From Malania oleifera (lineage: Eukaryota > Streptophyta > Magnoliopsida > Santalales > Ximeniaceae): a stretch of DNA of 64,000 nucleotides. The stretch is taken from NCBI RefSeq assembly GCF_029873635.1, contig NC_080423.1, forward strand, positions 97,646,397 through 97,710,396, given 5' to 3'. Position 1 is the first letter of the stretch, and the number at the start of each line of letters is the position of its first letter. The position numbers were made by a program, and so were the translations under genes. The notes under the pieces are model-generated. The model made no database searches. It was not told the origin of the DNA and saw only the letters and a list, made by a program, of their open reading frames with translations. Positions 13,667 to 49,076 of this stretch are shown one piece after another.

Positions 13667-14236
13667 TGTTGTTTATGGTGTGACTCTTATACTTCGGGGG
13701 TTTATAAATAAAGGCAGAAAAATATATGAATGTGTTCTTGGTGTAGAGCAGCAGTAAAGACTTGTCGACGAGTGTATAGACTAGTTGACGAGGGGTCTTC
13801 TCTATCTCGTCGACGAGTGCCCTGTTCTCGTCGATGAGTGCTTCAGGGTTGCGAGAAAATATTTGAATTTTGAATGTAAACGGTGTGACGGTTGTGGATT
13901 CGAAGGGAAGTCTCCGAGGGCTTGTTATATATGTTCTTCTGGGCATATTTTGACGAGTAAGAAAGTAAGAGAGGAGTGAGATAAGGAGAGAAGATCATTG
14001 AGTGTGTATATTTGATTTTCATAATGAAATCTCTTACTGATTGCTCTTGTGGATGTAAGTTTTGTTGAACCACATAATTCTTGGTGTCATTGCTCTTATC
14101 TTTACTTTCTTTATATTGTTATGGATGTGGAATAATTCTGTATTTCACCTTTGAGATTGTTGCATATGGTATAATTTGATCCTTTACAATGCTTATTCCG
14201 CTGTGCGTTGTTGGAAGAGGCCTTATTTTTACAACA
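13667..14236 (+). mobile_element. Ty1/copia 5' LTR (570 bp) carrying the decamer array
   Basis: The LTR starts TGTTGTTTATGG and ends TTTACAACA at 14236, followed at once by the primer site ATTGGTATCAG. The leader motif GTTGAACCACATAATTC and the phrase CTTGGTGTCATTG are typical of one common plant copia LTR type. A TATA-like TTATATATG lies near 13923. Just upstream are four decamers of the type also found in gypsy LTRs of this window. Its coding sequence follows at 14340. Confidence 0.85.
13762..13837. promoter_or_regulatory. Decamer array in a copia LTR
   Basis: Decamers start at 13762 (TTGTCGACGA), 13782 (TAGTTGACGA), 13807 (TCGTCGACGA) and 13828 (TCGTCGATGA), with steps of 20, 25 and 21 bp. 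This is nearly the 20/24/20 pattern of the gypsy LTRs. Function is inferred. Confidence 0.65.
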
Positions 14237-14250
14237 ATTGGTATCAGTGC
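14237..14250 (+). other. Primer-binding site, copia element
   Basis: ATTGGTATCAGTGC follows the LTR end directly and matches the tRNA-Met primer site except near its 3' end. Confidence 0.8.
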
Positions 14251-14339
14251 GTGTGTTGTATAACCTTTGAATTGAAGGATCTCGTGGTGCAGTAAGGCAT
14301 GGTGAAAGGTTTATACAGAATTTCAACCGAATAGCATGG

Positions 14340-14890
14340 ATGCAATCGAATTTCCTTACGAATGATTCTTGGATCTTAGATACCAGATGCTTTTATCCTA
14401 GAAAATGGTTTGACATCTACAGATCAGTTTATATTGGTTGTATTTTGATTGAAAATGATATTTCATGCAAAATGTTTGTTATTGGAAATGTCAAAATTAA
14501 AATGTATAATAGTGTTGTAAGTATCATATGTGATGTAAAACATGAATCGAGTCTAAGAAAGAATGGTATTTCATTAGGAACTTTAGTCCGTAATGGATAT
14601 TGTTACGAGTCTGAATGTGGAGAAATGAAAGTGTGTGAAGGTAACTTGATAGTGATGAAAAGGGAAAAAGTAGCGGGAAATATTTATGCACTCTAGGGTG
14701 TTAGGGTTGTAGGTGGAGTTGCAACTGTTGAAACTGAGTTAGGTATCTTATGGCATGTGCGGTTAAAACATATGGGTGACTACATGTTTTCAGATATTTG
14801 GGAACCAATGATGATAGCATCAGGGGATAAACATATGTATTTCGTGTGCTTATCATGAAGGGTCTCGGTGTACTTCATGTAGTGGCTGAG
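14340..14890 (+). pseudogene. Ty1/copia protease and pre-integrase fragment
   Basis: A decayed copia polyprotein piece lies about 100 bp after the primer site, so nearly all of gag has been deleted. The frame SWILDTRCFYPRKWFDIY corresponds to the copia protease region, but the catalytic DTGC is changed to DTRC. Further on, GNDIS-like, VKIKMY, GTLVRNGYCYESE and VAGNIYAL segments match the protease to pre-integrase region of plant copia elements. A stop (TAG at about 14694) precedes GVATVETELGILWHVRLKHMG, the HxxxxH-type pre-integrase motif. It ends where a gypsy LTR begins at 14917. Confidence 0.75.
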
Positions 14891-14916
14891 GTGGAGAACT
14901 ATACCGGGAGAGAGAA

Positions 14917-16819
14917 TGAAATGACCCGAAAATTTAAACTAAATAAATAATTAGGAAATATCATAAATGAAATGGATTAATGGATAATAAGGGAAAAAGG
15001 AAATAAATTAGAGGAGGAATAGCAAGCCTCATCGACGAAGGAATCCTGAGAGAGTAAATTTGAAACTCTGAATTTTGTCAACGAATGTATCTTCTCGTTG
15101 AGAAAGTCTCTTTAGTGGTTCGTTGACGAAACCACGTGTCTCGTCGACGAATCCACGTGGCAGCAGCGTCTATAAAAAGAACCAAGGTCGCTTCCACACA
15201 AAGCAACAAGTTTTCTTCGTTTCTCTCTTTAGGAAGTCATTTTCTCTCTCTTCTCTCTTCAGATCCGACTCGGATTTAGCCCGAATCGCTGAATGGAAGC
15301 CGCTACGGTGTTCTAGGGAGGATTCTTTACACATCTAGCGAATCAGTTTCTTAAACTGGGTTTTTGGGGGATGCTCCTAAGTTAAGGTAAGGGCTAGGTT
15401 TCTTAGTTTTGAGGGTTTTAAATGCTTATTTGAGGTTTAAAAGTGGATAAACTGTTGAAATAATGGGTTATTTGGGGTAGATATGACTAAACTAGGGTTT
15501 TGATTCAGGGTCCAAGTGAACCCCGTGGGTATCGGTTCGGGGATCCTACAAGCATAGGTTAGAAATCAGGTAAGGGGAAATTGTATATTAAATTAGGTTT
15601 TCATGAATTAAAATGGATTATGTTTTATTTAAGTATATATATATATATATATGTTTCCATGTGGATATAAAATGGCAATCATATAAATTATGTTTTTTGA
15701 GCTTAGGGCTGCCTATTTAGCTATGTATATGTGAAAATGAACCAATGGAAGTGAATAATATTTTTAGGATAATTATGTAAGAAATGAAAGGTATATTTTT
15801 AGTATATGAACATTAAAAGTTGATTGACCTATTTTACAGGAATATGTATGAATTTTACTGATAAATTGTGTGGCATGAGTACATGTAAGTTCTGAGCAAA
15901 TTTATGTTAAATATATGAGATGCACGCTAAATAAGTAAAGCATTAAAAATAAAATATGATATGAACCATGTTGCTTGTATATGTTAATGCAACCATGTAA
16001 ATGTATGACAACTGAAAGCCATGTTAGCAGATTTTAGAGCATTTCTATGTGGACTAACTGATGACGGCTAAAGAGCGGCTATAGTACGAATGAATGAAAT
16101 GAAATGACAATGGAATGAAATGTAAAATGTGAACGATGAAAATGGAAAAGAATCACTTAAAGTGAAATGTAATGCAATGTTAAAGCTATGAACATGAACA
16201 GATGTGAATGATTGAATAATGACAGAAAGAATAATGTATTATGATATCAGAAGTATCTATGCTCGTAGAACATGTTACGATTGGGCGAGGCGTACTCTTC
16301 GTCCGAGGGCTTGCAGAAAAAAGCGAGTGCACTAGTAACTTCAAATGTGGCAATAGGTACATAACATACTAGAGCATAGGGGGCCTACTTGTATAAGCGG
16401 GTAAATTTTCCTATCCTTTAGGCTTTCACTAGTAAACCTTTGTTTGAACTATGTGAGTACGAGATCAATCTAACACTAGAGGACTTACTGAGTAAGGTGA
16501 GTGCCCTGATATGCTTCAATAATGACCTTCGGGTTGCCAAATGTATTAGAATAGAGGGGTGCTACTTGTATGGGTGGGTAATCACCCCTATCCTTGGGTA
16601 ATCTCGTGGGTTAAATCTTTGCATGTGATTGATTAGGTCCAGAGAATAATTTCAGTGTTATGATAACGTTTTTCAAATGTTATTAAAATGATATCTATAA
16701 ATCTCATGTCAGCCGCACGCTGTTTTAATATATTGTTTCTTTCCTTACTGAGATGTGTCTCACCCGAATATGAATATTTCATTTTCAGGACATCCTCGAG
16801 GTCGGGCTTAGAGAGCTCG
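14917..16819 (+). mobile_element. Ty3/gypsy LTR, 3' end missing
   Basis: It starts TGAAATGACCCG (a decayed TGTAATGACC). Decayed decamers lie at 15025-15165, then TATA-like TCTATAAAAAG near 15170 and a CT-rich leader. Splice-donor-like AGGTAAGG and CAGGTAAGGG, with an intervening TTCAG, follow at 15380-15575. The part from 16340 matches the LTR fragment at 35662-36509. At 16820 it is interrupted by the LTR end of another element, so its last few hundred bases are missing. Confidence 0.75.
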
Positions 16820-18938
16820 TGTAATGACCCGACCCTTTCTATGGACCTAGTCTGCTACTGAACATACATAATACTTGTATCTGATAAACATACATAAACA
16901 ACCTGCCCTAAATAGGTACATACGAGTGTAACTCATACATAACTGGAATGTAAATGTTGCGGAAAAATATAAACATTCATCGGGATTTCTATTAGACATA
17001 TACTAGAGTTTACTCGCCGTATTCTTAATTATAGACATTCATATCTAAAACAACCAGTTCTTACAATTTCCAAATAAACATACTCCAACTATGTCTATTA
17101 CACAATAAAACACTTACGTAAGCTAAACTCAAAACCACCTTCCTAGTCCCTCTAGCAACTAGGACTGATGTCCTGAAGGACCTGAAAACAAAGGTTGTAA
17201 AATGGGGTGAGACACTTCTTAGTAAGGCGAAAGATATTACAACAGTATGTGACCACACACGCTTATTTCAATTTAAAACTGATACATATAATGAACATTT
17301 TCAATACTGTGATGCAACAGGTGTATCGATATAAATACTATAAATTTTCCCATATTAGCTTTTAAATCATGTATATGAGTATGTAGAATGACGACCAGCT
17401 TGGTATGACATATTACGCCTATTTACCCCGTGGCACGGGTTGTGCACTGATAACTCTAATATGCCCTATTTGCGCAGGCACTGTCAAGTATCTATTATAT
17501 AGTTCGACTACCCCCACCTGGTCAATTATTTCACCAGTGGTTTCATTACTCCTGCAAGCCAACTATCTCCGTACCCACACTGATTCACATGTGTGGTTGC
17601 ACTGTACTTTACTAGCTACGGAACTGAGCCTTTAGTAACGGGAGTATCTTTCAACCCCTTTAGAGGAAGTGTGTTTCAACTCCTTTAAACTGAAGTGTCT
17701 TTCAACTCCTTTGGTAGCAAGCTGTGGTTCCATTTATCATATATAAAATTTACAATGAAAACATAATAACCTGTGCAATTCCAGTATTTTCACAAACTTA
17801 TACAATCACATCAGGTATAAATCGCCACACATCCTTTCGGTTTACCCTTTTTACATACATAGGTCGGTATATAACCGACACCTGTTTTTCACATCTTCTG
17901 TATAGAAAAATAAAACTCCAGTTCCCATAATTCATACAAGTACTATAAAAGATTCTCACGTTCCATTTCAATACATATGTCACACTCGTTTGATCAAAAG
18001 TCCGCTATATAGGGTATAATTCAATAAACATCATTTAAATGAGAAATAAGGGATTCAAGCATCTCCTACAATAATATTAGTGCAAATAAAGAAATTTTGT
18101 AAAGTTTGGAGATCATATGCCAAAATCCTCATTTTTACCAAAAAAACCGTAAAATCGTAAAACCAACATTTTTATCCCACGAAATTTAGCAAATAAGCAG
18201 TCAAATCATACATATAAACATAAACTAACTTTTTAGTAGTTTAATTTTACAAAAAAATAGTGTTGTAAACAAATTCCCATTACCTTAAACCTGAAAATAG
18301 AAACGCGTACAGATCGGTCCAAACCAACAACCCGGGATCCTCGAAACCTAAAAACCACAGAACATTACCTTACCACAATCTCGATTACTATCCAACTACC
18401 TAATCAAAAACGAAATCAGATCATTACCTCGATTTTTGGGAAAACTAAAAAATATTCAAAACGACGATCCGATCCACTATATTTGTAGAGTTTCCTTCTC
18501 TGATCCACGTAGGAACCTTCGTTCATAGAAACAGACGACGAACGGTGAAGGATCGTAAAGAGAGAGAGAGAGAGAGGGAACCGCTGGTTCTAGAGAGAGA
18601 GAGAAAGAGAGCTTTTGGGTTTTCTTAACCCTTAAGCAACTAAAATGGATATTTATAGGGCCCTTGATCGAGTCAAACTCGTCGACGAGGTGGCGCATTC
18701 GTCGATGAGCCAGCCACGTAGTTCGTAACGAAGCCCTACCTTCGTCAATGAGCCCCACCCAGATATTTCTTTGGCTCACTCAGTATTCCCTCGTTGACGA
18801 CACTTTAAATTTCGTCGACGAGGTATTGAAAGAACTTTGTCGACAAACCTTCTGCCTTCATCGACGAACCCTGCTGTAATATCCCCTTTTTACCCTTTCC
18901 TTATTTATTCTCCTTATTTATGGGTTCGGGTCTCTCCA
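16820..18938 (-). mobile_element. 3' LTR of gypsy element E7 (2119 bp)
   Basis: The LTR reads on the minus strand from TGGAGAGACCCG at 18938 to TCATTACA at 16820. A purine tract and E7 coding sequence lie on its 5' side, which makes it a 3' LTR. It is the same type as the two LTRs of E5. Decamers lie at 18675-18870, a TATA-like box near 18655 and a leader hairpin at 17427-17439. The 5' LTR and most of E7 are not in the window. Confidence 0.85.
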
Positions 18939-18955
18939 ATCTCCCCTCTTTATAA
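18939..18955 (-). other. Polypurine tract of E7
   Basis: On the minus strand, AAAGAGGGGAGAT directly precedes the 3' LTR start. This is the usual plus-strand DNA primer position. Confidence 0.8.
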
Positions 18956-19178
18956 CAATTTCGTCCTCAAAATTTATTAACCGTTGCTAAGCATAATCTT
19001 ATCTTATAATTCTGTTTTACCAAAAAGTCGGCAGCCACCCACAAAGCAGCTCCGGCCAAGTTTATTACATACCCTCCCATATGGAGGAGGAATACCGTAG
19101 TTACAACATAACATTTTGAGAACGTACAATATACATACAAAACACATTAACATATATACATTCGCTTACCTTACTAAC

Positions 19179-19340
19179 TTAACCATATCTAAACAACTGA
19201 GGATACTTTTTACATATCTCAGTTTCTAATTCCCAAGAAACTTCTTCCACTGCATGGTTCCACCACAATACTTTCACAAGCAGTATCTCCTTCGTCCGTA
19301 ATTGTTGGACCTTCCGATCTAATACCTGCACTGGTACCTC
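19179..19340 (-). pseudogene. E7 pol C-terminal end, chromodomain-like
   Basis: Only the last 54 or so codons of a gypsy polyprotein remain. They begin VPVQVLDRKVQQLRTKEI, continue through VKVLWWNHAVEEVSWE and end in KKYPQLF. This matches the C-terminal chromodomain-like module of E1 (near 27585) and E5 (near 46197), which in chromoviruses is thought to guide integration. The fragment is cut at 19340, exactly where the LTR at 19341 begins. The rest of the polyprotein is missing. The sequence between the stop and the LTR contains the family's conserved 3' non-coding block (ACGGTATTCCTCC). Confidence 0.85.
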
Positions 19341-20436
19341 TGTAAGAACCCAAATTGTGATAAATGGGTTTAAACAAATAAGAGAGGGGGAAATTAGGGA
19401 TTTAGCAGGATTCGTCGACGAAGCCAGAGTTCGTCGACGAAGGCCATGCATCTATCATCGACGAAGTGCTCACGGTCTCGTCGACAAGTGTTCCTTAGGG
19501 GATCATCGACGAATTTGTGTGTCTCTTCGACGATCCCCTGCCTATAAATAGTGGTTCCTTTCATTTTCAGTAAGAAAAATTCTGCATGAAGCCTCTCTCT
19601 CTCTCTCTCCCTTTAGAAAAATGGCCCCTTTGCCTTCTCTCTTCGATTTTGGGCTGGATTTGACCCGGTTAGATGATTCGGAACCACCACAAAGTTTGTG
19701 GGATCGTTGTTTGTAAGGCTATGAGAGCTGATCATTGATTTGGGGTTTTGGGGCACCATCCCAAAATCAGGGTAAGTGAGTTATTTTGGAGTTTTCTTAC
19801 TAAATATAATTATTTGGAGCTTATGTAGTATTAAATGAATATTTTTCTAAGATTTGAGTGAGTTGGGAATTTTGGACTTTAGGGTCTCGTTTTCCACACG
19901 GTTTAGGCAGGAACTTGAGGAACAGGTAATGGGAAATACTTTATAACAACTTTTTATACATTTTTAAACCGGTTAAATTTGGGTATAAAATTTTATATAT
20001 TTAGGTATAATTTTCTAATCAGTGTAGGTATTGAAAATACTGTTCTTGATTATATACTATATTGGGAAAAATCGTGTGGCATGAAAACCACTTTGATAAT
20101 TAAATGGTTGTAAGTATTTTGGAATTATGATTTATTGTGTGATTGTGAATACTGTTTGGGCTCCGAATTTTGTTTAGTTGAAAATACTGGTTGGTTGTGG
20201 ATACTGTCTAATTGTGTATACTGTGGTAAATGTGTGACGTGCTTGAGTGGTTGGTTTTGCTATTGATTTGTGCTGTGATTCATGTAAATTGTGATATAGC
20301 ATTGGCAGTGGTTTGAGGAGGTCGTTATATCATACCTGATATAACTGTCTATTGACTCTACGAGTTCAATCCGATTTTGATAATGACCAATCACATGGTA
20401 TTTGATCTGTGCATTGAGATTGTGAGCATAAACTAT
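19341..20436 (+). mobile_element. Ty3/gypsy LTR, 3' part missing
   Basis: It starts TGTAAGAACCC inside E7 coding sequence. Decamers lie at 19410-19535, TATA box CCTATAAATA at 19541-19550, and a CT-rich early leader from 19589. Donor-like CAGGGTAAGTG lies near 19770. It fades into copia LTR sequence at about 20430, so the right boundary is approximate. Confidence 0.7.
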
Positions 20437-21739
20437 ATTAAGCATGCACGGAAGGACAACAAGTCATAGAAGCCATAAAGAATAAAGCATACATATATGG
20501 GCAAGATCCATGGAACTCAAAGAGTACAAGAATGAAGATGCAAGTGACAAGTTTAAGAGCGTCATGGGAATGAGTACTTAGAACTCATGTATTTACATTT
20601 TCATATGATTTAATTTGAGACTCAAATCATAAACTTGAATGACCTTAAGACTCATGCATTTCATGAACATCATTAGGGGACATTCATGGACATAGAAATA
20701 TTTTTAAAATCCTGAAAAATATTTTTATAAAAGAGCCAAGAAAGAAAGGAAAGCAGTTTTTCAAATTGTAAAGAAAAAATTTAGGAAATAGGAACTTCAG
20801 ATGATTGAACTCAGCGGTCAGTCTCTTGAAGTTGCCACTTCAGAAGACTGAAGTTAACCTCAGTTGTCTGAAGAATTTCTTCAGAAGACCAAAGATTAAG
20901 TTCAGTTGCCTAAAGAATTTATGGTGAAACACAAAACCTAGCAGAAGCACCTCAGAAGATTAAACTTAGACTTCAGTCTTCTAAACCCGACATTTTAGTT
21001 GTATGAACCCTAAACTTCAATCGTCTGACCCTGTATCCAGGTTAATTTTTTGAAGCTCTAAGGAACTTCAGTCGTCTGGGCCTTTGACCTCAGTCACTTG
21101 AACTTGCGGGAAAACTTAAAAATCTAATTTTTAATAAGAGAACTCACGAGATATTTTTTGATCCAACGGTTGAGATCTATTCTAAGGGTAAGACACCTAT
21201 ATATTGAACATCTAAACCCTAGTACGTTAGCAAAGAGTAACGAGAAGAGAAGAGAACATCTTTTTGAAAGAGAAGTGAGAAACTTGAGCATATAGTTATA
21301 CGATTGGCTGCACTCTAACTTATACTCATCAAGTTTGGGCAAATCAACTCAGAAAATCAAAGGGAATTTAGTTACACATCTTGAGTTCATCTTGGTATTG
21401 AGGTTTAGTCAATCCATTTATTATTTTCAAGAGTTTTTCATCTCATCATATGTCATTGAATGTTATCATTAGAGAGATTGATCTTGAGTTTTTCATATAC
21501 ATATAGAGTGTGTTTTTGACAAGTTCATTACTTGAGAAAGTTTTCCTTTGGGCATTGATTAAATAGTTATCATTCACGTGTGTCCTTAGTTAAAGATTTG
21601 ATATTTTGGATACTTTAAAACCATTTGATTAAATATTCGTAGAAGCTCATAACTATATATATATATATATATATTGTATTGAGGGATATTTTTTGGAAAA
21701 CTTTATATTCAGTGTTTTGATCTTTGGAATACATATCGT

Positions 21740-21789
<50 letters not shown>

Positions 21790-22574: not shown

Positions 22575-22576
22575 TT

Positions 22577-22590
22577 TGGTATCAGAGCGG
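22577..22590 (+). other. Primer-binding site, copia element
   Basis: TGGTATCAGAGCGG matches the tRNA-Met primer site perfectly in its first 12 bases. It lies 2 bp after the LTR end. Confidence 0.9.
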
Positions 22591-22629
22591 GTGTACATAA
22601 ACGTAATTGTTAATTTGTAAAAAGATCAC

Positions 22630-24155: not shown

Positions 24156-27100
24156 GTGAGGGTCTATGTGTTGACACCAGGAGACGCTGAGACGGTTGGA
24201 GACGTCGTAACAGGTACTCTTACTACTTTACAATATAGAATGATTGTCTTGTTTGATACAGGTGCCACCCACTCTTTTATATCGGCGTGGTATGTGAAAA
24301 TAGCTGGAATAGAGACACAACCATTAGATATAAAATTATCTGTGGGTACGCCGATGGGATCTGTGATTAGATGCAGGAGGGTACTTCAAAATTTTCCAAT
24401 AAATATTCAGGAGAGAGTGCTGCTAGCCGATCTTGTGGTCCTAGATATGCAGGGGTTTGATGTGATGCTGGGCATGGATTGGTTAGCAACTTATCACGTA
24501 AGTATTGATTGTCATCTGAAGGAAGTGATTTTTAGACCCCCAGGTGAGTCAAAGTTTAGATTTGCGGGTTCACGTGTACGTGCCTCACCGCAGCTAGTGT
24601 CGGCTATTCAGGTGAGGAGATTGTTACAGGGTGGTTACCAGGGGTATGTCGCATACATAAAAGAATTGCCAAAAGAAGAATTGGGACAAGTTGGCATACC
24701 AGTAGCGGTGGAATTTTCAGATGTATTTTCAGAAGAATTGCCTAGTTTGCCACCAGATCATGAGATTGAGTTCACTATAGACTTGTTGCTGGGATCTGCA
24801 CTAGTATCTAAAGCACCGTACCGTATAGCCCCAGTTGAGTTAAGAGAATTGAACGATTAGCTATAGGAGTTACTGGATAAAGGTTTCATCAGACCTAGTG
24901 TGTCGCCCTAGGGAGTGCCAGTTTTGTTCATGAAAAAGAAAGATGGAACCATGAGATTGTGCATCGATTATAGGGAGATAAATAAATTGACAGTTAAGAA
25001 TAAATATCCTCTCCCTAGGATTGTTGATTTATTTGATCAGCTCCAGGGGACCCAGGTTTACTCTAAGATTGATCTGCGGTCAGGTTACCACCAGGTGAAA
25101 GTTAAAGTAGAAGACATATCGAAGACCGCATTTCGTTCCAGGTATGGGCATTACGAGTTCTTAGTGATGCCATTTGGGTTAACTAATGCTCCAGCAGTTT
25201 TCATGGATTTGATGAATCGGGTATTCCACCAGTATTTGGACCAGTATGTGGTTGTGTTCATTGATGATATACTGGTCTACTCGAGGAGTATTGAGGAGCA
25301 CGAGCATCATTTGAGACTGGTATTGCAGATATTGAGAGAAAGGAAATTATATGCAAAATTCAAGAAATGTGAATTCAGGTTAAGGCAGATTACTTTTCTC
25401 GGCCATGTGATCTCAGAAGCAGGAGTATCAATTGATCTGAGCAAAATAGAGGCAGTGGTGAATTGGGAGAGGCTGGGAAATGTTTAGGAAGTCAAGAGTT
25501 TTCTGGGGTTAGCAGGTTACTACCGACGCTTTGTGGATGGTTTCTACAGGCTATCAGGTCCATTAACACGACTTACAAGGAAAAATTTAAAATTTGAATG
25601 GATTGATGACTGTGAGCAGAGTTTTCAAGAGTTAAAGCAGCGGTTAGTTTCTGTTCCAGTACTAGCTATTCCATCAGGGGAGAACAATTTTGTGATACAC
25701 CGTGATGCCTCTTTGAAGGGTTTTGGATGCATGTTGATGCAGCACGACAGGGTCAATGCTTATGCATCCAGATAGCTTAAAAAATATGAGAAAAATTATC
25801 CTGTCCATGATTTAGAGCTTGCTGCAGTGGTGTATGCTCTTAGAATCTAAAGGCATTATTTATATGGTGGAAAGTACGAGATTTTCATGGATCACAAGAG
25901 CCTGGAATATTTCTTCACTCAGAAAGAGTTGAATATGAGGCAAAGAAGGTGGCTAGAACTTATTAAAGATTATGATTGCACGATTACTTACCACCCAGGA
26001 AAAGCGAACGTAGTGGCAGATGCTCTGAGCAGAAAATCAGGGGGGTCCGTACTGGCTGCAATGGAGATTCAGCACTCAATTCTGGTGGATTTGGAGAGGC
26101 TCGGTATAGAATTGGTGGAGGAGAGTCCTCAGCCAGTTATTGCTAGTCTAGTAGTGCAGCCCACGCTTTACAAGAAGATTAAAGTAGCTCAGGGTGACGA
26201 TGCAGAGTTGGCAGTGGTGATGGCTAGAGTACGTGATGGTCAGAGTTCAGCATATTAGATGACGGTGCTTTGCAATTCCGTACTAGACTATGTGTTCCTG
26301 CAGATGCTGAGATCAAGAGGACTATACTGGAGGAGGCTCACAGTCCCTATACACGGTCCATCCTGGCAGTACTAAAATATACAAGGATCTGCGAGAGTAT
26401 TTTTGGTGGAGTGGAATGAAGAGGGAGATAGCTGAGTTTGTTCAGCAATGCTTGACGTGTCAGTAGGTTAAAGCTGAACACCAGAGACCAACAGGACAAT
26501 TGCAGCTGTTGTTTATTCCAGAATGGAAGTGGGACCACGTTTCGATGGATTTTGTTACGGGGTTACCACCGGTGCAGCAGGGATTGAATGCAATTTGGGT
26601 AGTCGTTGATCGTTTGATGAAGACTGCTCATTTCATCCCTATTAAAATTGGTTATTCCATGGACAGATTGGCAGAGATATATGTTTAGGAGATAGTTCAT
26701 GTTCATGGAGTACTAGTATCCATAGTCTCAAACCGAGATCCACGGTTTATTTTGCGATTCTGAAAAAGTTTTCAGGAGGCTATGGGTACGCAGCTAGCTT
26801 TTAGCACTGTTTTTCATCCCTATACTGATGGCTAGATTGAGAGGACCATTCAGATACTAGAAGATATGCTTCGTGCTTGTGTACTTGATTTTGGAGGTAG
26901 TTGGATTCAAATTATGCCGTTAGTTGAGTTTGCTTACAATAATAGCTATCAGGCTAGCATTAGCATGACACCTTACGAGGCATTATATGGCAGAAGATAT
27001 CGTTCTCCTCTTTTCTGGGATGAAGTAGGTGAAAGACGAGTTTTGGGTCCCGAGATAATACATCAGGCGTTCGACAAAGTCTGATTAATTAGGGAAAGAA

Positions 27101-27585
27101 TCAGTACAACACAGAGTCGGCAGAAAAGCTATGCTCGCTGTTGGAAGTTAGAATTTGATGTGGGGGATCGAGTATTTTTGAAGATAGCTCCTCTGAAAGG
27201 AGTTATGAGGTTTGGAAAGAATGGCAAGTTGAGCCCTAGGTTTATTGGCCCTTTTGAGATACTTGAGAAAGTAGGGTCAGTTGCCTACAAGCTAGCTTTG
27301 CCGCTAGCTTTGGCTCGTATTCATGACGTCTTTCATGTTGCCATGTTAAGGAAATACGTCCCAGACCCATCCCATATCATTAGCTATGCAGAGATAGAGC
27401 GTAAGGATTCATTAACATATGAAGAAGTACCAGTACAGATTTTGGATAGATTGGTTCAGACTTTACGCACTAAAGAAATACAGTTAGTTAAAGTTTTGTG
27501 GAAGAATCATGCTATAGAGGAAGCTTCTTGGGAGCTCGAACAGCAGATCAGACAGAAATACCCACAGTTGTCTCAAGAGGTATAG
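24156..27585 (+). pseudogene. E1 pol: protease-RT-RNase H-integrase-chromodomain
   Basis: Domain order is that of a Ty3/gypsy chromovirus. Protease has LFDTGATHSFIS at about 24250. Reverse transcriptase (about 24830-25490) has [33 protein letters not shown] and the intact catalytic motif FIDDIL. RNase H (about 25680-26060) ends in [12 protein letters not shown]. Integrase (about 26260-27080) has the region WDHVSMDFVTGLPP. The end carries the chromodomain-like VPVQILDRLVQTLRTKEI module. About eleven in-frame stops occur, nearly all at conserved Gln (CAG to TAG) or Trp (TGG) codons, for example 24858, 24909, 25485, 25774, 26464 and 26687. Apart from these stops the frame is largely intact. Confidence 0.93.
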
Positions 27586-27841: not shown

Positions 27842-28238
27842 TGTAACGACCCAGAAAATATTGATATTCAAACATTAAAGAGAGAGGAAATGGAAACAGA
27901 AAGAATGAAATCGCATTTTGGAGATAATAATGATAATAATAAATTCAAGGAATTGCTAGAACTCGTCGACGAATACAAGGCTTTGTCGATGAGTACATAA
28001 GGAAACTCGTCGACGAATACAGGGCTTCGTCGACGAGTATATAAAAAAATTCGTCGACTAATACAAGGTCGACGAGAAAATACCGAGAGGGGTTATGAGG
28101 CAGCCTGAAATTTGTCGACGAATACAGGGATTCATCGATGAATTTATTGAAAGATTCGTCGACGAGATGACGTGCCTCGTCGATGAAGGCCACAGTATAT
28201 AAGGGGAAAACTCGGATTTTTATCACTTATCTGCGCCC

Positions 28239-34403: not shown

Positions 34404-34940
34404 TGTAACAACCAGCTAATTTTTTTCCATAGACAACATTTTATATAACTATGGGAAAGGCAAAAAATGAATAAAATGTCTTACCTTGAAATTGGGATGG
34501 AGTTCAAACCACTTCCACCAACAATCCACTCCATAAAATTTATAGAGAACTTTCCCAGGAGCGTCGTGGTGGCCTCGGATCATTAATCCGACAAGAAATG
34601 GGGCTGGAATCGAAGAGAGAAGGGGAAAGGAACGTTTTAGAGAGAGAGAGGATTTCTTGCACCAATTTTTTGCTGAAAAATTCGGGTTTTAGCTCTTTAT
34701 AGTCCCGGATTCGACAATAAGACACGTCATCTCGTCAACGAGTCCCTAAAGAAAGTTCGTCAATGAACATAAACCCCTCATCGAAGAATTTCATATTGCT
34801 AAAACCCCCCTCTAGACATCTTTTCGTCGACGAGACGGGTCCTCGTCCACAAGACACTCATGTACCCTCGTCGACGAATCCCCTGTGTTCGTCAACGAGA
34901 CCCTATTAAATTCTTTATGATAATTATTCGAGTCTCTACA
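34404..34940 (-). mobile_element. E2 5' LTR, unusually short (537 bp)
   Basis: It starts TGTAGAGACTCG at 34940 and ends GGTTGTTACA at 34404, next to the primer site. U3 has decamers at 34705-34905 and a TATA-like box near 34700. The early leader (GAGGCCACCACGACGCTCC) and the first donor-like AAG|GTAAGAC are present. Then about 1.6 kb found in related LTRs is missing: second donor, GC-rich block and AT-rich U5. It interrupts E6 integrase. Confidence 0.85.
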
Positions 34941-38461: not shown

Positions 38462-40615
38462 TGTGGTGACCTGCTTAATTTCCACATTTTTTTTATAGGA
38501 TCAATATCACAAATCTCAGCTCAACAGATCAAAGTCCATCTGGACCCGTGGGTACCAGGGATATATCAAAACATATAGTAGAAGCCTAAGCAGTAGGAAA
38601 CATACAATCACATACATCTCATCATATCATACATCACAATACCAGAGTTACTACAATCACTATATTTCAGTATATACATCCTAAAAAAAATCAAATCCAG
38701 GGACATTCCCCACAAAATCTAACTGTCCCTACAAAAACTCACCCTTCAAAAAGGGTAGACAACAACTCTAGATCAGCGGGGCTTTTCCCGCTCTCCTATT
38801 AGGGGAACCTGAAAAGTTTATAAAATTTAAGGGTGAGACACCTCTCAGTAAGGGAAATAAACTAATACCAGTATGTGGCAACATGAGTATTCCGTGTTAT
38901 ACACATATCATACATAACATATTCAGTAACTATTTTTTCAAATCTGGGAAAACATATATATATCAAAACATGGCAGAACATACTTCATTTTCATAACATA
39001 TCTCATCTCATATCATAATAATAACATATAAACATCCCTAGTAGGTTAGCTGGCTATTGTCATGTATTACCCCCACATGACTGAGTTGTGTGGCTCGAAG
39101 GTAGGACCTGACAATGGTTGGCCGACCATTACCAAGTTAAAAGTGCAGTCTGTAAGTCCAATGGGTCTGCCTGACCTGGTCCATACACCAGGGGCGATCA
39201 CACTCTTCTTAAAAACCACATCAACCATCCAATCTCACACCACTCCGTACATCGGCGTTAACACAGATATCATGATCATAAAGACTATGGACACATAGCA
39301 ACAGTACCGTGCAAGTGCTAGCCTAGACCAAGCCAACCAGGTTCTGATACCATATAACATATATTGAAACTGTGATACATGGATATTCCATATCACTAAT
39401 TATCAGATCAATCACATCATTTTGCATATATACGTATATCATGAAAATCATCGGCTCATACGCCGGTATTACACATTTTACCATAACTCAGCCCGTACGC
39501 CGGCAAATCATAGCACAACCCGTACGCTGGCAAATCACATTATAGCACAGCTTGTACGCTAGCAAATCACATCATAGTACAGCCCGTATGCTAGAAAATC
39601 ACATCATAACACAGCCCATACACTGACAAATCACATCATAGCACAGCCCGTACGCTAGCAAATCACATCATAGTACGGCCCGTATGCCGGCAAACATATA
39701 TAAAAATCTCAGCCCGTACACCGGTTTTCCCATTATAAAAATCTGTTTCATAATCTCATTCTAGAAAACAGTATTTCAAAAATTGTATACTCATGCCACA
39801 CTAAGGTTTTCCGCATATTCAACATACCAACATTTCATCAGTATTTTCTCAAATATAAATCATATATATATACATATTTATTTTCCTGAAATCAAATGCT
39901 ACTTATATACATATATTTCTCAAAAACAACTAGCTTAGTTTATCCCCTTACCTGATTCCTGAAAAGCCCTTAAGAAAATTTGCCCTGCACACGTAGGGTT
40001 CTCAACTCAACACACTAGAAACTCCATTTCCCAGAATTAAAGTTCAGTATTTCTAAGCGTATAACACTTTCCTCAACTGTCAAAAATCCAAATATTGAAT
40101 AGAAAACCTTACCCTGGATTTGGGATGGTTTCCACCTTGCTTTCACTAACGATCCGCTCCGACAGATTTGGAGAGAACTTCCCCAAGAGCATCGTGGTGA
40201 CTTCGGATTGTCGATCCAACGAAGATCTAGCCCGAAATCGACAAAAGAGAGGGAGAGAACCGAAGGGGAGAGAGAGAGAGAGGATAATTAGCTTCTTAGG
40301 GAAGTTTAAAATTCGGATTTTGATATTTATAGATAGGGGATTTCGTTGACGAAATTCAGTCCTTCGTCGACGAAATTCGGTCGGCTCAAACCTCTCTCGA
40401 TATTTCTTCGTCGATGAGTCCCCTGTATTTATCGATGAATTCTTTTATACCTTCATTGACGAATCCCCTGTATTCGTCGACGAACCCTTGATGCTTTCCC
40501 CTTGGTTTTTCCTTCCATTCCCGTTCGTCGACGAAGTCGACTACCTCCTTTTGTTACTGTCTCCATTTCCTTTCCTCTTTATTATTTAAATCCCATTATT
40601 ATTTGGGTCGTTACA
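38462..40615 (-). mobile_element. Solo gypsy LTR with TCATA duplication (2154 bp)
   Basis: It starts TGTAACGACCC at 40615 and ends ...GGTCACCACA at 38462. TCATA occurs on both sides (38457-38461 and 40616-40620), a 5-bp target-site duplication. The insertion splits E6 gag. No coding sequence is inside, so it is a solo LTR formed by LTR-LTR recombination. It carries decamers at 40340-40545, the CGTACG minisatellite at 39450-39740 and the GC-rich leader block at 39060-39250. Confidence 0.95.
39450..39740 (-). repeat. Minisatellite in solo LTR leader
   Basis: About eight units of AGCCCGTACGCTAGCAAATC type, roughly 30-35 bp each, many ending in ACATCATAGCAC. This is more units than at 560-740. 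Confidence 0.8.
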
Positions 40616-41012
40616 TCATAGCTACTGGTACCTGTCTCTGTTCCTCCAGTAATATCATAGCTATCCACCACCTTTTGACCTCACCTGTTTGTTTATAAGC
40701 AGCATAAAGAACCCTCTACTCATCAGTGCAATGGAGGGCCTTTAGTATTTTCTCGATCTCCTGCATCCAATTCTCAGCCACTGCAGGATCGACTCCTCCT
40801 GAGAATGCTGGAGGATTCATCTCCATAAACTTCTCAATAGTACAGCCTCGATCTAACAATGGTCCTTCCTGCTCTCTAGATCTACGTGCAATATCAGTCA
40901 TAGCCTGCTAAGCCATGCTATCTCGTACTGCGTCTGAATCACCACCGCCCGCACCAGAGGGGCCTGTACCATCGTCTCCACTAACATGAGCACTACTACC
41001 CCCAGGGTCCAT
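40616..41012 (-). pseudogene. E6 gag N-terminal part
   Basis: The start codon is at 41012 (MDPGGSSAHVSGDDGTGP), preceded by the acceptor-like CTTATTATAG and a G. The gag domain start is clear: CTIEKFMEMNPPAFSGGVDP and ENWMQEIEKILKALHCTDE. Stops occur at Gln positions (after DSMA and after CTDE). The frame is interrupted at 40616 by the solo LTR and resumes at 38461 with the expected next region. Confidence 0.9.
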
Positions 41013-41361
41013 CCTATAATAAGATAAACGTAGTCTGAGAACCTTGTCTGTACAACATAATCAGTATATTCATCAAATTTTGAAATCGAAAAACGTCAAT
41101 TAATCTATCGTCCTTACCCTCAATTTAAGATTCAATCCAGTAATTGAGAAACACAACCCGACCATAGTTTACCATGACTTTCCTAAAATCGTCACCCTAG
41201 GAAAGACATAGAAATCACAACAAAAATTATGCTCCCTGATCACTAAACAAAACCCTAAATACTTATCTTCATTCCGTAACATTGATTCACTAAATTCCTA
41301 TTCTATTTCTATACTCTGATATTGTTTAAGCTGCACTCTATAGTCTACAGAACCTAACAAC

Positions 41362-41380
41362 CTAGGCTCTGATACCAAAT
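41362..41380 (-). other. Primer-binding site of E6
   Basis: On the minus strand, TTTGGTATCAGAGCC follows the LTR end within three bases. It matches the tRNA-Met site. Confidence 0.9.
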
Positions 41381-43899
41381 TATAATGACCTAAAATTTTC
41401 ATCCTTTTTTTTCTATATTAATATAATTCTTAATACCTTACATGAGCATTGCCATAATCATCACGGCCCGAAGCGGGACCGTGGTAACTTGTGCATTTCA
41501 TATAACACCTAAGCAACAGAAGTACATACATATCCAACATATTTTAAAATACAATACCAGAGTACTATATATCTAGTTGTACCCACACGCACATATACAT
41601 AACACTTCCCAAAAGTCCCAAAATACTGTGGGCTCCACAAACCAGCCCAAATCTCACCCCAAAAACTGCGCCGACTCAAAAACCACCTCTACCCCTAAGT
41701 CGGGCCTGCTCGCCTCTCTGGATTACCTGAAATGTTTAATAATGCTGGGGTGAGACACCTCTCAGTAAGGAGAAACATGTTATTATCAGTGTGTGACATA
41801 TGAGTTAATTGGCAACATATCATTTAATTAATATTGTATATGATATACATAAAGAAAAACATATGTATAATAACACATGCTTATGTCATTTAGAATATTA
41901 AAATTTCTGAGTTTATCTATTCGAAAGTACTTCTATATATAATAAATAGTCCTTGCTTTCTGTGTGCACTATACATATATATAAATCTATAAATTTCCCC
42001 CCTAGATGGCTATATGTCATGACTTACCCCCTCAGGACTAGGTTGTGTACCTCGTAGGCGGGGCTAAACACTGGTGGCCCTCCAGTGCTAGCCTAATTGT
42101 ATGCATATCTAGATGCTTATAGCACGAAAGGCCCGCTCCACCTGGTCTGGACGCCAGGGAGCTCACAACTCTACCTGAGGACACAATCGGCTGTGCCATA
42201 CTCTAGACGTACGGTTGCATTGTCTATGCTGTATAGCAACGGTACCGTGCTCTATAAATTGTTGTATTTCATCGAGGTCTGATACTGTATAATAATATTT
42301 CTATATAAATCTAACTATTTACCATGATTCTATATTTCTGTAACAACCATGATTCTATATCAACTATATAACCATAACGCTGTAATAACTGTATATCTAT
42401 ATAATATGTAACTATAATTCTGTATTCTGTAGTTCTGTATGTCATGGCTCTATGCTCTATATAATCTGTATTTCTGTACATCACAGTTCTATACTCTGTA
42501 TATCATGGCTCTATAAAATTCTATATAATCATGGCTTTGTATATTTCTATATAACCATGGTAATAAAAACACCATATAATCAATTCTGTAAAACACTGTA
42601 CAATCATGTTCTGAAATATACTACGTAATCATAATTCTGTAATCCACTGTATAAGCATGATTCTATAAAATACTGTATATCATATAAATTATATTTCTGT
42701 ATAATTTTGTATATTCATAGTTCTGTATATAAAACTATATAAGTTATGTTTCATAACTTTGTAGGCTATATAATCAAGTTTCTGTAAAACTGTATGACAT
42801 GTTTCTATAGAAACTATATATATAAGCATAATTCTGCAACTTTGTATGAACATTCTATAGTATCTCAGTATTACTTATGCCACACAACAAAATAAAATCT
42901 CTATAATCATACTCTGTAAAACTATATAATTTTCAAGCTCTGATATGTTCAAAAATCATATTCTAATACTCAAGATCAAATACTATACTTTACTGGTAAA
43001 GTTTCTAATAAAGCTAGCATAACGTATATTTCCCTTGCTTGACTATCTAGCTCTAGATACTATTTTATAATATGCATGCGGTGTTCATAATTTCCAACAT
43101 CCTCAAATAACACCCATATAATTCCCAGTCACACAACTGAATTTACCATAATAATGATCACATTCATATTTTTCCCAACTCCACATATCTAGAATTTCTA
43201 AACTATAATTTACCTGGGCTCTTGGAAAGATACTTACTGGGGTCCTCAATCCATACTTGCAGGGTCCCAAAAATACCCTAATCCTAAAAATACAACACCC
43301 CAATGTTACTTCACAAAACTCTAGTATATCCTCATACCATAGCAAATCTAGGCTCAGATAAACCTGATAATAATAAAAATACCCAAATAATCTACTTACC
43401 CTGGTTTTGGGATGGTGCCCAAGTTGGCCTAACCAACAATTTACTCTAGCAAACTTGAAGAGAATCTTCCTAGGAGTAACATGGCGGCTTCCGATCATCG
43501 AACCGGCAAAGAACGAAACTGGAATCATAGAGAGAATGAGAGGGGAACAAATTTTAGAGAGAGATGGAGCTTGGCATGCAAATCCTTGCAAAAAATGTGA
43601 TTTTTGACCTTAAATAGAATGCTTGTCCACGTAGCCTCGTCGACCAGCCATATCATCTCGTCAACGAGTCCACGTAGAGGGCTCGTTGATGATCACCTAA
43701 CCCTTGTCGACGAGTTTCAGGCCTTGAAATCAGCCTTCTTGGTAAGTTCTCGTCGACAAGACACGAGTCCATGTCGACGAGCCCAAGAAGGCTTATCATC
43801 AACGAGCGCTCTGCGTTCGTTGACAAGACCCTGCTGAGTCCCTCTTGAAATTTTCCTTTTCTCTATTTTATTTTATTATTTAATTACTATAATTATTCG
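41381..43899 (-). mobile_element. E6 5' LTR, main part (start lies at 57657-57671)
   Basis: The LTR end is GGTCATTATA at 41381, next to the primer site. Its first bases (TGTAGAGATTCG) lie at 57671-57657, and E5 has inserted between. Decamers lie at 43630-43835, with an early leader at 43440-43620. Donor-like CAGGGTAAG is near 43399, then an acceptor-like TTTTTAGGATTAG and a second donor CAGGTAAAT near 43215. The GC-rich block lies at 42020-42110. A long AT-rich stretch with many CTGTATA-like repeats runs at 42280-42960. Confidence 0.87.
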
Positions 43900-45941
43900 T
43901 GTAATGACCAGACCCTTTATACGGACCCAGATGTCACTCACTTATACAAAATACCTGTATCTGTTCAAGATACGTAAACAACCCGCCCTAACAAGGGACA
44001 TACGGGTATAAATCATACATGATTATGATGTAAATGTCGCAGAAAAACATAAACATCCATTGGGATTTCTATCAGTCTTGTACCAGAGTTTACTAATACA
44101 TCCACACCGTTTACATAAATTCAGACATAGAATAAATCCTGCAATTACAACCCTCCAAAAAGGAACTTCATCGAAGTTTAATACAACATTCAAACGCTTA
44201 CGTAAGCTAACCAAAAATAATCTCCCCAGGCCCTTTTTCTATTAGGACCGACGTACTGATGGACCTGAAAACAAAGGTTGTATAATAGGGTGAGACACCT
44301 CTCAGTAAGGAAGAAAGTGTTACAATAATGTGTGACTGCATATATGCACATTTTCATAGAATCATACATTTGAAACATTTGTTTACAATACTGTAACATA
44401 TAACATTTATCTGCACATCAAGTATTTGAATCATGCATATGATTATTAGAACAACGACCATCTTGTCATACATGTATTGCCTATTGACCCCTGGCACGGG
44501 TTGTGCACTGATATCTCCAACAATGCCCTGTTCGTGCAGGCATATGTAAAGTATCTATGTATAGTCCGACTGCCCTTATCTGGTTTATTATTTTTCCAGT
44601 GGTTTCATTACACCTGCTAGCCGACTATCTATGTACCCAAACTGATTTTAAATATGAATGGTTGCACTGTACCCTTCCAGCTAAGGAATTCCCTGCCATT
44701 GGAGTTTCTTTCACCTCCATTACTGAAGCTTTTTCAACTTCTTACATTGGAGTATCTTTCAAATCCTATTACTGGAGTATCTTTCAACTCCTTAGTAGCA
44801 AGTTGTGGTTCCATTTATCATATATACAATTTATAGCAAAATATAGTAACCTGCGCAATTCCAGTATTTTCACAAATTCAATTAATCATATCGGGTTCAA
44901 ACCAACGCCTATCCACTCGATTCCCCTTTTTACTTATATACAACTCCGTGTATAACCAGCCTCTGTTTTCCTCATTTTCAATATTACAAATTGGAACTCC
45001 GTTCCTATAATCTATATCAATAGTATAGAAAATTCATACATTTCCATTTCAACATATATCACACGAGTTTAGTCCAAAATACGCTAAACGATAAAAAAAT
45101 CCAGTAAACATCATTTAAATGAAACAGTAAAGGATTCAAGCATCTCCTATTACAATATAAATGCAAATAAGTAATTTTCATAAGGTTTTGAGATCATATG
45201 CCAAAATCCTAGTTTTTACCAAAAATCGTAAAATCGTCAAACCGACATTTCTATTGGGTAGAATTTTGCAAATAAGCAGTTAAATCATACATATAAATAT
45301 AAACTAACTTTTTAGTGGTTTAGTTTTCCAAAAAAAGTTGTTGTAATCAAATTCCCCTTACCTTAAACTCAAAACGAAATCACGTACAAAACCGATCCAA
45401 ATCGACAACCTGGGACCTTGAAACCTAAAAACCACAAAACATAATCTTACCATAACTTTGACTACTACCCAAATATCCAATAAAATTTGAGATCGGATCC
45501 TTACCTCGATTTTTGGGAAAACCCAAAAATCTCAGAAACTACAATCTGATCCGCTAAAATTGTAGAGTTTCCTCTTCTGATCCATGCAGTACCCTCCGTT
45601 TTCGGAAATGGACGACGAACGGCGAAGAGTCTTAGAGAGAGAGAGATTTCATTAGTAGAGAGAGAAAGAGAGAGCTTTTGGGAGAAACTTAGCTCTTAAG
45701 CAACTCAAAACGGATATTTATAGGGCCTTTGACCAAGTCTAACTCGTCGACGAGGGGGCGTCTTCGTCGACGAATCCACCACACAGTTCGTCGACGAGGC
45801 CATACCTTCGTCGTTGAGCCCAATCTGGATATTTTTACTGAGCTGCTCGGTATTTGCTTGTCGACGAGGCTCTGAAGAACTTCATCAATGAACGTGACCC
45901 TTCGTCGACAAATCCTTCTTATACAGGTTTGGGTCCCTACA
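43900..45941 (-). mobile_element. E5 3' LTR (2042 bp)
   Basis: It starts TGTAGGGACCC and ends GGTCATTACA. Decamers start at 45744, 45764, 45788 and 45808, with steps of 20, 24 and 20 bp. The TATA-like box is near 45717. The leader hairpin region is at 44488-44500. Confidence 0.93.
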
Positions 45942-45958
45942 ATCTCCCCTCCCTATAA
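45942..45958 (-). other. Polypurine tract of E5
   Basis: On the minus strand, AGGGAGGGGAGAT directly precedes the 3' LTR start. Confidence 0.9.
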
Positions 45959-46196
45959 GAATTTTGTCCTCGAAATTTACCAACAATTGTTAACATAATC
46001 TTTTCTTACAGTCCCGCTTTACAAATGAGTCGACCGTCACCTACAAAGTGACTTTGGTCCAAATTCATTACATATCCTCACATATGGTGGAGGAATACCG
46101 TGGTTACAGAAAGGATACATTGAAAGATTACATATAAAAACAAGACTCTCCCATTGATCACATCATTCAATCTATACCACTTACACTACTATATAA

Positions 46197-47350
46197 CTAC
46201 GTACTATCAAATAACTGTGGGTACTTCTGGCGTATTTCATATTCTAGTTCCCATGAAGCTTCTTCCACTACATGGTTTTGCCATAATACCTTTATGAGAG
46301 GTATTTCCTTAGTCCGTAACTGTTGTACTTTCCAAGTCAATATCTGCACTGGTACTTCCTCATACGATAAGACATCGCTGATCTCTAAAGGTTTGTAACT
46401 CAGTACATGTGATGGATCTAGTATGTACTTCCTCAGTACAGACACGTGAAATACATCATGTACTCTGGACAACGCTGGAGGTAAAGCCACTAGATAAGCA
46501 ACCGAACCTATCCTTTCAAGGATTTCAAAAGGCCCGACATACCGAGGACCTAGCTTCCCCTTCTTCCCGAATCTCATCACCCTTTTCATCGGAGTGATTC
46601 TCAAGAATACCATATCTCCTATCCCAAATTCCAACACTCATCGATGAGTATCAACATAACTCTTCTGTCGACTATGAGCAGCTTTAATTCTTTCCTTGAT
46701 CAATTCGACCTTTGCAGAGGTCTGCTGAATTAATTCTCGACCTAGTATTTTCCGCTCACCTAGTTGATCCCAGTACAACAGAGATCGACACCGACGACCG
46801 TACAAAGCCTCATAAGGTGCCATCTTTATGCTTTCCCTGGTAACTGTTGTTGTATGCAAATTCAACAAGCAGTAGATATCGTTTCCAACTATCACCAAAA
46901 TCTAGTACACAAGCCCGCAAAATATCCTCTAACGTCTGAATAGTCCTCTCTGATTGTCCATCCGTCTATAGGTGAAAAGATGTACTGAATGTCAATTGTG
47001 ATCCCAAGGCATCCTGTAAACTCCTCCAGAAACGAGATGTAAAACGTAGATCTCGATCTGAAACAATAGAAATAGGGACACCATGGAGTTGTACCACCTC
47101 CTGCACATAAAGATTTTCCAGCCTATTCAGAGAGTAGCTGACTCTGATTGGAATGAAATGTGCAGTCTTCGTCAACTGATCTACTATAACCCATATGACA
47201 TTCTACCTATGCACTGCTACAGGTAAACCCATCACAAAATCCATCGAGATGTGTTCCCACTTCCACTTAGGGATGTCAAGTGGCTGAAGTGGTCCTGCCG
47301 GCCTCTGATGTTCCGCTTTGATTTTTTGACATGTCAGACACTGCTCTACA
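46197..47350 (-). pseudogene. E5 integrase and chromodomain-like C-terminus
   Basis: The frame resumes at 47350 right after the inserted solo LTR. It begins with the integrase zinc-binding end ([18 protein letters not shown]) and continues [33 protein letters not shown] and [13 protein letters not shown] of the catalytic core. [15 protein letters not shown] follows. The last 146 codons (46637-46197) are one open frame. They hold RYVGPFEILERIG, VHDVFHVSVLRKYI and the chromodomain-like EEVPVQILTWKVQQLRTKEI, ending in KYPQLF. Stops and a frameshift between 47200 and 46640 break the core. Confidence 0.9.
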
Positions 47351-48018
47351 TGTAATAACCCGAAATTTTTCCACAATGCCTCGTCAATAAACACAGGAGT
47401 TCGTTGATGAGCGCATAAGGGGGACCTCATCGACGAAGCCATGCCTTGTCGACGAAAAGATACTGAGAAAGGTTTTAGGGACAGTCTGAAATTCATCGAC
47501 GAGGGAGGAAGTTTGTCGACTAAATTATTAAAGGACTCGTCGACGAGGTGATGTTTCTCATTGACAAATTTGGCTCTGTAAATAGTGAAAACCCAGATTT
47601 TTTAACAAATTTCAACGAGAAACTCTCTCTCTCTCTCTCTCTCTTTTTCTCTCTCTCTAAAACGTTTATCCTTCATTCTCTCTTTGATCCTGGCCCCATT
47701 TCTCGCCAGATTGAAGATCTGAGGCCACCACGATGCTCCTAGCAAAGTTCTCTACAAGTCTGCCAGAGCAAATCATGGGGAAAGTTGGTTTGAAATTCAT
47801 CCCAAATACAGGGTAAGGTATTTTATTTAGATTATGCCTTCCTTGTAGTTATAAGAAATGTCATAGATAAGAAAATACTGATGTTTTGTTCTAAGAGATA
47901 TTGTTTTCAAGATGTTGAGCTAAGAACCTGGCGGGCATAGGGCCAGAATTTCGTAAAGGCTTTTCAAAGATAAGGTAAAGGAAATATGTTATGTTAGGAG
48001 ATTTACTTACGTTATCAG

Positions 48019-48055
<37 letters not shown>

Positions 48056-48891
48056 CTGTCTATGTAATCATCTAAAATAAATTGTATATGTATACATATT
48101 TTGTCTGTATAAAATCTGCAATTATCTAACTATATTTGTATAACTTGAAATACTGAAAAACTACATAATGTATACCAGATATTATACAGAATGTGAATTT
48201 TCAAAGAATGTGTGGCCTGAGTATATGATATTGTAATGGAGTTTTATATAGTTTTTCAGTATTTCAAGTTATACAAATATAGTTAGATAATTGACATTTT
48301 ATATAGACAGAATATGTATACATATATAGTTTATTTCAGATGATTACATAGACAATTATATATATATATATATATATATATCAGTATATTTATATTTATT
48401 CAGAACAGTATATACAGTGTATATAGAAAGTTATGTTTTCCTAAATGCCATAACACTTAGATTAAACAGAAAGGAAGTACACACAGATTATATAGAAAGA
48501 AAGTACAGACAGATTACACAGCTATATCATCAAGATGCTACAGATATTACAGTATTTATAGTACAGTAATATAGAGTTATGGTTATTTTGAAAATATAAT
48601 GAAAATAGTATAAAGACTATAGTATGTATATATATAGTATCAGAACCCTGTGGAAAGATTACAGACAGATACAGTACAGATATAGAATACAGAATACAGA
48701 GCAAGGTACCGTTGCTAGATACAGATAGAGTGCAACCACATATCTCAGATAGTGTGTGTGAAGTGACCTGAAGAATAATATGATTTTAATAATAAGAGGG
48801 AGAGAAATAGAAAAAAAAAAACAGAAGGACGCGTTCGTCGACGACATTGCATTTTAGGGGATAACCATAATTTCAAGGAAATTGCCAGGAC

Positions 48892-49076
48892 TCGTCGATG
48901 AATACAGGGCCTCGTCGACGAGTGCATAAGAAAATTCGTCGACGAACACAGGGCTTCGTCGACGAGAAAATCCCGAGAGAGGTTCTGGGGCAGCCTGAAT
49001 TTCGTCGACGAATACAAGGCCTCATCGATGAATTTAATGAAGGACTCGTCGATGAGGTGATGTGTCTCGTCAACGA
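48892..49076. promoter_or_regulatory. Best-preserved phased decamer array
   Basis: Eight decamers in two groups of four. Steps inside the groups are 20, 24, 20 and 20, 24, 21 bp, with 46 bp between groups. The TATA box follows about 12 bp after the last one. Confidence 0.7.

Follow-up and report, generated by a model that had tools for sequence, protein, structure and literature searches.

The question raised by a 64,000-nt stretch of Malania oleifera DNA (contig NC_080423.1 of assembly GCF_029873635.1, positions 97,646,397 to 97,710,396 of the forward strand; the whole stretch is referred to as the window) is why one self-complementary decamer, TCGTCGACGA, with arms TCG...CGA, recurs at regular distances in the long terminal repeats (LTRs) of both Ty3/gypsy and Ty1/copia retrotransposons. 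The decamers were found to form arrays with a small set of steps and to be accompanied by a second box, ATACCGAGAG. The arrays are read here as a composite cis-regulatory module in the unique 3' region (U3) of the LTR, likely an enhancer or upstream activating region, and the probability of this reading, as judged from the letters of the DNA, is put at roughly 0.7.

Exact copies of TCGTCGACGA numbered 29 in the window (expected 0.00; none in dinucleotide shuffles), and 113 sites were found when up to two mismatches were allowed (8.9 expected, no more than 16 in shuffles); after removal of overlaps 106 sites were left, and 100 of these lay in 14 clusters of at least four decamers. Every decamer start quoted in a preliminary description of this DNA was recovered with 0–2 mismatches, and its tally of thirteen gypsy LTRs or LTR pieces and one copia LTR was correct, S15 and S19 being assigned to gypsy on LTR similarity alone. 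The genome to which the window belongs was scanned for the decamer (1.494 Gb, 510 contigs), which gave 132,361 exact sites and 1,383 for the reversed-word control. Sixteen stretches were then picked around decamers from 100 listed genome places; 14 were arrays of at least five decamers and two were single sites. Given more than 130,000 exact sites, and with 14 of the 16 sampled stretches being arrays, the module may govern much of this plant's retrotransposon load. The arrays of the window and the features that belong to them are as follows.

1353..1538, minus strand: gypsy U3 array L1a, eight decamers; a ninth, distal decamer at 1580-1589
1755..1965, minus strand: gypsy U3 array L1b, nine decamers, with an extra 25-bp unit; distal decamer at 2009-2018
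13667..14236, plus strand: copia LTR, TGTTGT...ACAACA by eye; primer-binding-site-like word at 14239-14250, Pol_BBD at 14271-14693
13762..13837, plus strand: copia U3 array, four proximal decamers at steps of 20, 25 and 21; TATA-like word at 13926
15029..15150, plus strand: gypsy-like U3 array S15, partial; box at +4 behind the first decamer, two mismatches
18679..18867, minus strand: gypsy U3 array S18
19412..19533, plus strand: gypsy-like U3 array S19, partial, box not found
27085..27582, plus strand: gypsy integrase end with SH3_Tf2-1, then a chromodomain-like stretch by eye
27963..28186, plus strand: gypsy U3 array E1, with an extra 44-bp unit; TATA at 28196
28080..28089, plus strand: box ATACCGAGAG of E1, 4 nt after a decamer
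34732..34898, minus strand: gypsy U3 array S34
40343..40483, minus strand: gypsy U3 array S40; distal decamer at 40525-40534
43637..43826, minus strand: gypsy U3 array S43
45744..45911, minus strand: gypsy U3 array S45
47381..47567, plus strand: gypsy U3 array S47
48892..49076, plus strand: gypsy U3 array S48, full four plus four; distal decamer at 48835-48844, box with one mismatch at 48970-48979
57438..57626, minus strand: gypsy U3 array S57; LTR end at 55597 adjoins a primer-binding-site-like word and minus-strand gypsy pol

Within the 14 clusters, 69 of 86 adjacent steps fell in the set 19–21, 24, 25 and 46 bp; in 5,000 random placements such steps averaged 12.9 and never exceeded 26. A genome-wide plot of decamer distances had been proposed in the preliminary description as a check; pairs of exact decamers were counted at steps of 19–21 bp (13,519), 22–23 bp (269) and 24–25 bp (6,374), so that two peaks were separated by a deep valley. 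Uniform scatter predicts about 35 exact pairs over three distances, and per bp the pairs at 22–23 were about 24 to 34 times rarer than those at the peaks. The same step pattern was reproduced by the 100 listed places, and the short steps of the sampled arrays were 19–22 and 24–25 bp, 22 being seen once and 23 never. Chance origin of the sites was ruled out by the shuffles, the random placements and the reversed-word control. The steps of 20 and 24 bp originally reported are both present, but the full set is 19–21 and 24/25 bp; likewise, a common face of the helix can be upheld within the 20/21-bp pairs and not for the remaining spacings, as 24–25 and 45–50 bp are not whole helical turns. The 10.5-bp helical resultant was weak (0.28 for adjacent pairs, 0.13 for all pairs), and global 10.5-bp phasing was discarded on these values.

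The usual gypsy module consists of four decamers, the box ATACCGAGAG 4 nt past the fourth, four more decamers and the TATA, the steps in sense orientation being 19–21, 24/25, 19–21, 45–50, 19–21, 24/25 and 20/21 bp; several gypsy LTRs have lost or gained whole units. At up to three mismatches, 7–10 decamers were counted in 11 of the 13 window gypsy arrays, five in S15 and six in S19. The 45–50-bp interval between the two blocks holds the second box, which is absent from the preliminary description and was found at up to two mismatches in 10/13 window gypsy LTRs and, at +4 and the same threshold, in 10 of the 14 sampled arrays. Genome-wide, a decamer followed after 2–4 nt by the exact box was found 1,818 and 1,746 times on the two strands (reversed control 0), with a gap of 4 in all but one of the matches listed; among 30 loci fetched around the first of these matches, the best window LTR was gypsy in 27 and copia in three. 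The last decamer lies 9–11 or 20–21 bp from the TATA in 11/13 window gypsy LTRs (in S34 and S43 the last counted site differs from the regular slot), and it ends 9–12 bp before the TATA in 23 of the 27 further gypsy loci (two outliers, two without a TATA word). The reported position just upstream of the TATA box is thus right for gypsy and not for copia (88 bp, see below).

The word TGACGTG (at most one mismatch) occurred in the last short spacer of 21/40 gypsy arrays, in 2/98 other short spacers and 0.6 times on average in shuffles; we take it to be an ACGT-core site of the basic leucine zipper (bZIP) type. RVP_2, RVT_1, RNase H and SH3_Tf2-1 domains were identified in the gypsy elements of the window, and plant relatives were among the named best matches of their reverse transcriptase. 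The gypsy carriers appear to be chromoviruses, because the SH3_Tf2-1 integrase end is followed by a stretch that by eye resembles a chromodomain; they may be Tekay elements. Two further observations were made in the gypsy LTRs. ACAGGG was present in 39/138 short gypsy spacers (e.g. 27973-27982 and 28017-28026), always in sense, and in 0/78 long ones (shuffle mean 0.3); it may mark another site or be left over from tandem duplication. Four window LTRs have an extra decamer about 51–57 bp distal to the array (1580, 2009, 40525, 48835), and several fetched LTRs have one at 47–75 bp; it lies beside a TTGCATTTTGG-like stretch.

The window copia LTR is genuine: a primer-binding-site-like word and a Pol_BBD domain stand behind it. 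Its family was searched for in the genome (1,927 first candidates, 40 copies scored, 30 fetched, the window copy included), and at least one decamer was found at or near the same place in U3 in all 30 fetched copies, which excludes the copia array as a stray piece of one copy. The complete form, with steps of 21, 48, 20, 25 and 21 bp, is kept by six of the 30, with up to six decamers per LTR; in these six the order, the orientation to transcription, the near-identical spacing and the box in the long interval are those of gypsy. The remaining copies are without one or more sites, three retaining a single decamer, and the window copy has the four proximal decamers only and no box. The box stands exactly 4 nt behind a decamer in 18/30 copies (at most 2/30 for 200 shuffled words), and the last decamer is 88 bp from the TATA in 26/30 and 86 bp in two (TATA not found in two). 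The claim that two superfamilies share the array was thereby borne out and strengthened by the common box. A decamer array dissimilar to the window LTRs used as library was also noticed at L081 (G000:C1:217750-219150, minus strand, about 500–810) and at L095; that of L081 comprises, by eye, apparently three blocks of four with box-like words between, about 0.9 kb ahead of copia integrase and RVT_2 domains. The two loci possibly represent a third carrier family. In L095 (1052-1773, minus strand), downstream of a copia reverse transcriptase, PF20167 (Putative plant transposon protein) gave weak matches under the curated cut-off.

An old transfer followed by drift of all but the sites is favoured for the sharing, because order, orientation, spacing and box all match. 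Tentatively, the whole module would have moved between Ty3/gypsy and Ty1/copia and been kept by selection as everything between its sites drifted, with the result that parasites of unrelated kinds perhaps obey the same assembly of host proteins through a spacing code. A separate gain of the sites in each superfamily, converging on the same host factors, is possible but doubtful and would concern the origin only; it accords with copia-gypsy spacers that bear no convincing likeness to each other (lowest P 0.04 in six tests), with an after-box segment that did not exceed shuffles in 8 of the 20 copia copies tested, and with the unlike TATA distances, but it would have to account for a decamer common to both, the box at exactly 4 nt, steps as close as those of complete copia copies and, for example, 20, 46, 20, 24 and 21 bp in gypsy, and an equal orientation to transcription. 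Sharing of the entire module by two superfamilies would show that retrotransposons can either exchange regulatory parts or arrive separately at one exact grammar.

Across the 13 aligned window arrays, mean column identity was 0.78 in decamers and 0.48 in spacers, a difference reached by none of 20,000 column permutations. When pairs of arrays were compared (55 pairs, the partial arrays S15 and S19 omitted), decamer identity was 0.80–0.81 in every class of spacer identity from 0.78 down to 0.36 (r 0.09), and in the further loci (22 of 27 with a complete proximal block, the five incomplete ones being dropped; 231 pairs) it was 0.82–0.85 throughout (r −0.10). That decamer identity stays level as spacer identity drops amounts to a natural experiment on which bases and distances are indispensable to a retrotransposon promoter. 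CpG transitions made up 97 of the 114 changes counted in 105 decamers, and T/A positions were changed in 6/420 cases. In the most similar pair, S45–S57, the decamers (0.80) are less alike than the spacers (0.90), so that inserted copies lose decamers fast, through CpG decay, and transmitting lineages keep them all the same. Selection on the decamers is well supported by these comparisons. The proposal that selection holds the spacing stands to this extent, and the multimeric factor or silencing protein invoked with it would be a putative reader of the sites.

It had also been asked whether the regular spacing might be that of a plain tandem repeat, in which a unit of 44–46 bp was multiplied by slippage and the decamer is a by-product. 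Tandem Repeats Finder reported repeats of 44 bp in E1 and of 25 bp in L1b, copy number varies between arrays in whole units, and spacers within one array were more alike than shuffles clearly in E1 and S48 and weakly in L1a, L1b and S40 (P 0.03–0.04, uncorrected). In the other 9/14 arrays, however, their likeness did not exceed that of shuffles at P 0.05, so that spacers are not conserved within most arrays; moreover, decamers are alike between LTRs with spacers only 0.36 identical, and conversion tracts of 10 bp would be unexpected. As a full explanation the tandem repeat is contradicted for most lineages by the spacer tests and the decamer and spacer identities, and it is considered highly unlikely.

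Scarcely more probable is that the palindromes act as hairpins in RNA or single-stranded DNA, for instance as sources of small RNAs or as signals for packaging of the genomic RNA at its 3' end. Six array pieces did fold far better than their dinucleotide shuffles (z −3.3 to −7.6), but when the decamers were fixed and the spacers shuffled, 12/14 arrays folded no better (z above −2; the exceptions were S48, −2.0, and S43, −4.6), and a hairpin requires complementary arms, not one self-palindrome in each slot. Since the energy is independent of the spacers in 12/14 arrays, the folding is taken as a by-product of repeated palindromes, and the hairpin was dismissed on the fixed-decamer shuffles.

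Several points weigh against the interpretation as a selected composite module. With S15 and S19 included (78 pairs) r was 0.30 and class means ranged from 0.74 to 0.81, the two most diverged classes having decamer identities of 0.77 and 0.74; slots were identified through the motif (up to three mismatches in the further loci), which sets a lower limit on decamer identity; and the regular spacing of some lineages originated in a tandem duplication of 44 bp. The box has three mismatches in S34 and S43, is lacking in S19 (five mismatches) and was not found in 4/14 sampled arrays, and the distance from module to TATA is 88 bp in copia against 9–21 bp in gypsy.

If the arrays are nonetheless a transcriptional module, each palindromic decamer would be bound by a symmetric host protein that acts as a dimer, as is suggested by the retention of a self-complementary site in every slot. 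Pairs at 20–21 bp (about two helical turns) would form the unit, whose proteins could touch each other on one face of the DNA, and pairs would recur every 44–46 bp. A second factor is envisaged on ATACCGAGAG between the two decamer blocks, joined in many gypsy LTRs by a bZIP-type protein on the ACGT core of the last spacer, with the TATA at a set distance beyond. Because 24–25 and 45–50 bp are not whole turns and the 10.5-bp signal is weak, contacts that are flexible or use two faces are more probable than a single rigid complex. The CpG density of the arrays would leave room for a methylation-sensitive reader, and the effect on LTR transcription would be one of activation. The module frames the questions of which host protein reads TCGTCGACGA at 20–21 and 24–25 bp and whether host genes near LTRs use it.

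It is unlikely, though less so than the tandem repeat or the hairpin, that the arrays dock a silencing or anti-silencing protein (a VANC-like one or a host reader of CpG) in place of an activator. Dense arrays of short motifs are the known form of VANC targets, as far as the consulted part of that report goes (PMC5735166), and the CpG observed/expected ratio is 1.53 in the arrays against 0.64 window-wide. A site beside the TATA in gypsy and the conservation of exact spacing nevertheless suit a promoter element better, and active lineages should drop a site that merely invites silencing; no candidate for an element-encoded DNA-binding protein was seen, without a systematic search for one.

Two other repeats were recorded in the window. 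A 319-bp unit is present as a tandem duplicate at 2413-3050 (96% identity), outside the arrays, with a related stretch at 3106-3424; a 32-bp tandem repeat occurs at 39507-39687 and 49912-50101, in inverted copies inside related LTR regions.

Searches beyond the genome gave the following. Among viral contigs, ten carried a decamer pair, and neither a degenerate triple nor a relative of the reverse transcriptase was found. In the open-licence literature, mostly titles and the starts of abstracts, no description of this module was found, nor was TCGTCGA found together with plant, transcription factor, motif and DNA affinity purification sequencing (DAP-seq); among the open-licence papers listed for the exact decamer word, none concerned retrotransposons by its title.

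The repeated activator boxes of Tnt1 and Tto1 and the heat-response elements of ONSEN are factor sites in U3 that drive LTR transcription, with different motifs, fewer copies and single carrier families as compared with the module described here; we know of no composite among such LTR activator boxes that is shared between superfamilies. The VANC21 motif of VANDAL DNA transposons, according to the part of the report consulted, is non-palindromic and in one orientation and is read by an element-encoded protein; dense short motifs in non-coding parts of transposable elements and tandem growth are common to both systems, whereas symmetry, promoter position and fixed spacing belong to the module here (PMC5735166). 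As gypsy and copia share the module, a host protein would be the more plausible reader than an element-encoded one. The nearest known kind, judging from the available portion of its description, is the repeated-motif (RM) box of Sirevirus (Ty1/copia) LTRs. RM boxes are short palindromes rich in CpG that recur many times within the upper LTR half, a little ahead of the TATA; they raise local CpG and are conserved while their flanks diverge, and their function is likewise unproven (PMC2829016). Palindromy, copy number, CpG islands and the place before the TATA are shared, and the Vitis Sirevirus RM CGGTCGACCG has the same GTCGAC core as the decamer, but the Sirevirus signature is CGG-CCG in place of TCG-CGA arms and is reported, in the part seen, to be absent from classic (other copia) elements (PMC2829016). 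As in the RM boxes, the arrays studied here have a palindromic motif that occurs eight or more times in the LTR set of an element, and they lie in a CpG-rich stretch shortly upstream of the TATA; the decamer has no CGG-CCG core, and the carriers were gypsy at 27/30 box loci and in 13/14 window arrays. Sirevirus RM boxes are reported from copia Sireviruses only, whereas the present module occurs in chromovirus gypsy elements and a copia family, with a fixed 20/24 alternation and a partner box, neither of which is described for the RM boxes in the accessible part of that paper (PMC2829016). Relative to RM boxes as described there, the module is rated as new in being carried by chromoviruses, composite, rigidly spaced and shared across superfamilies (PMC2829016).

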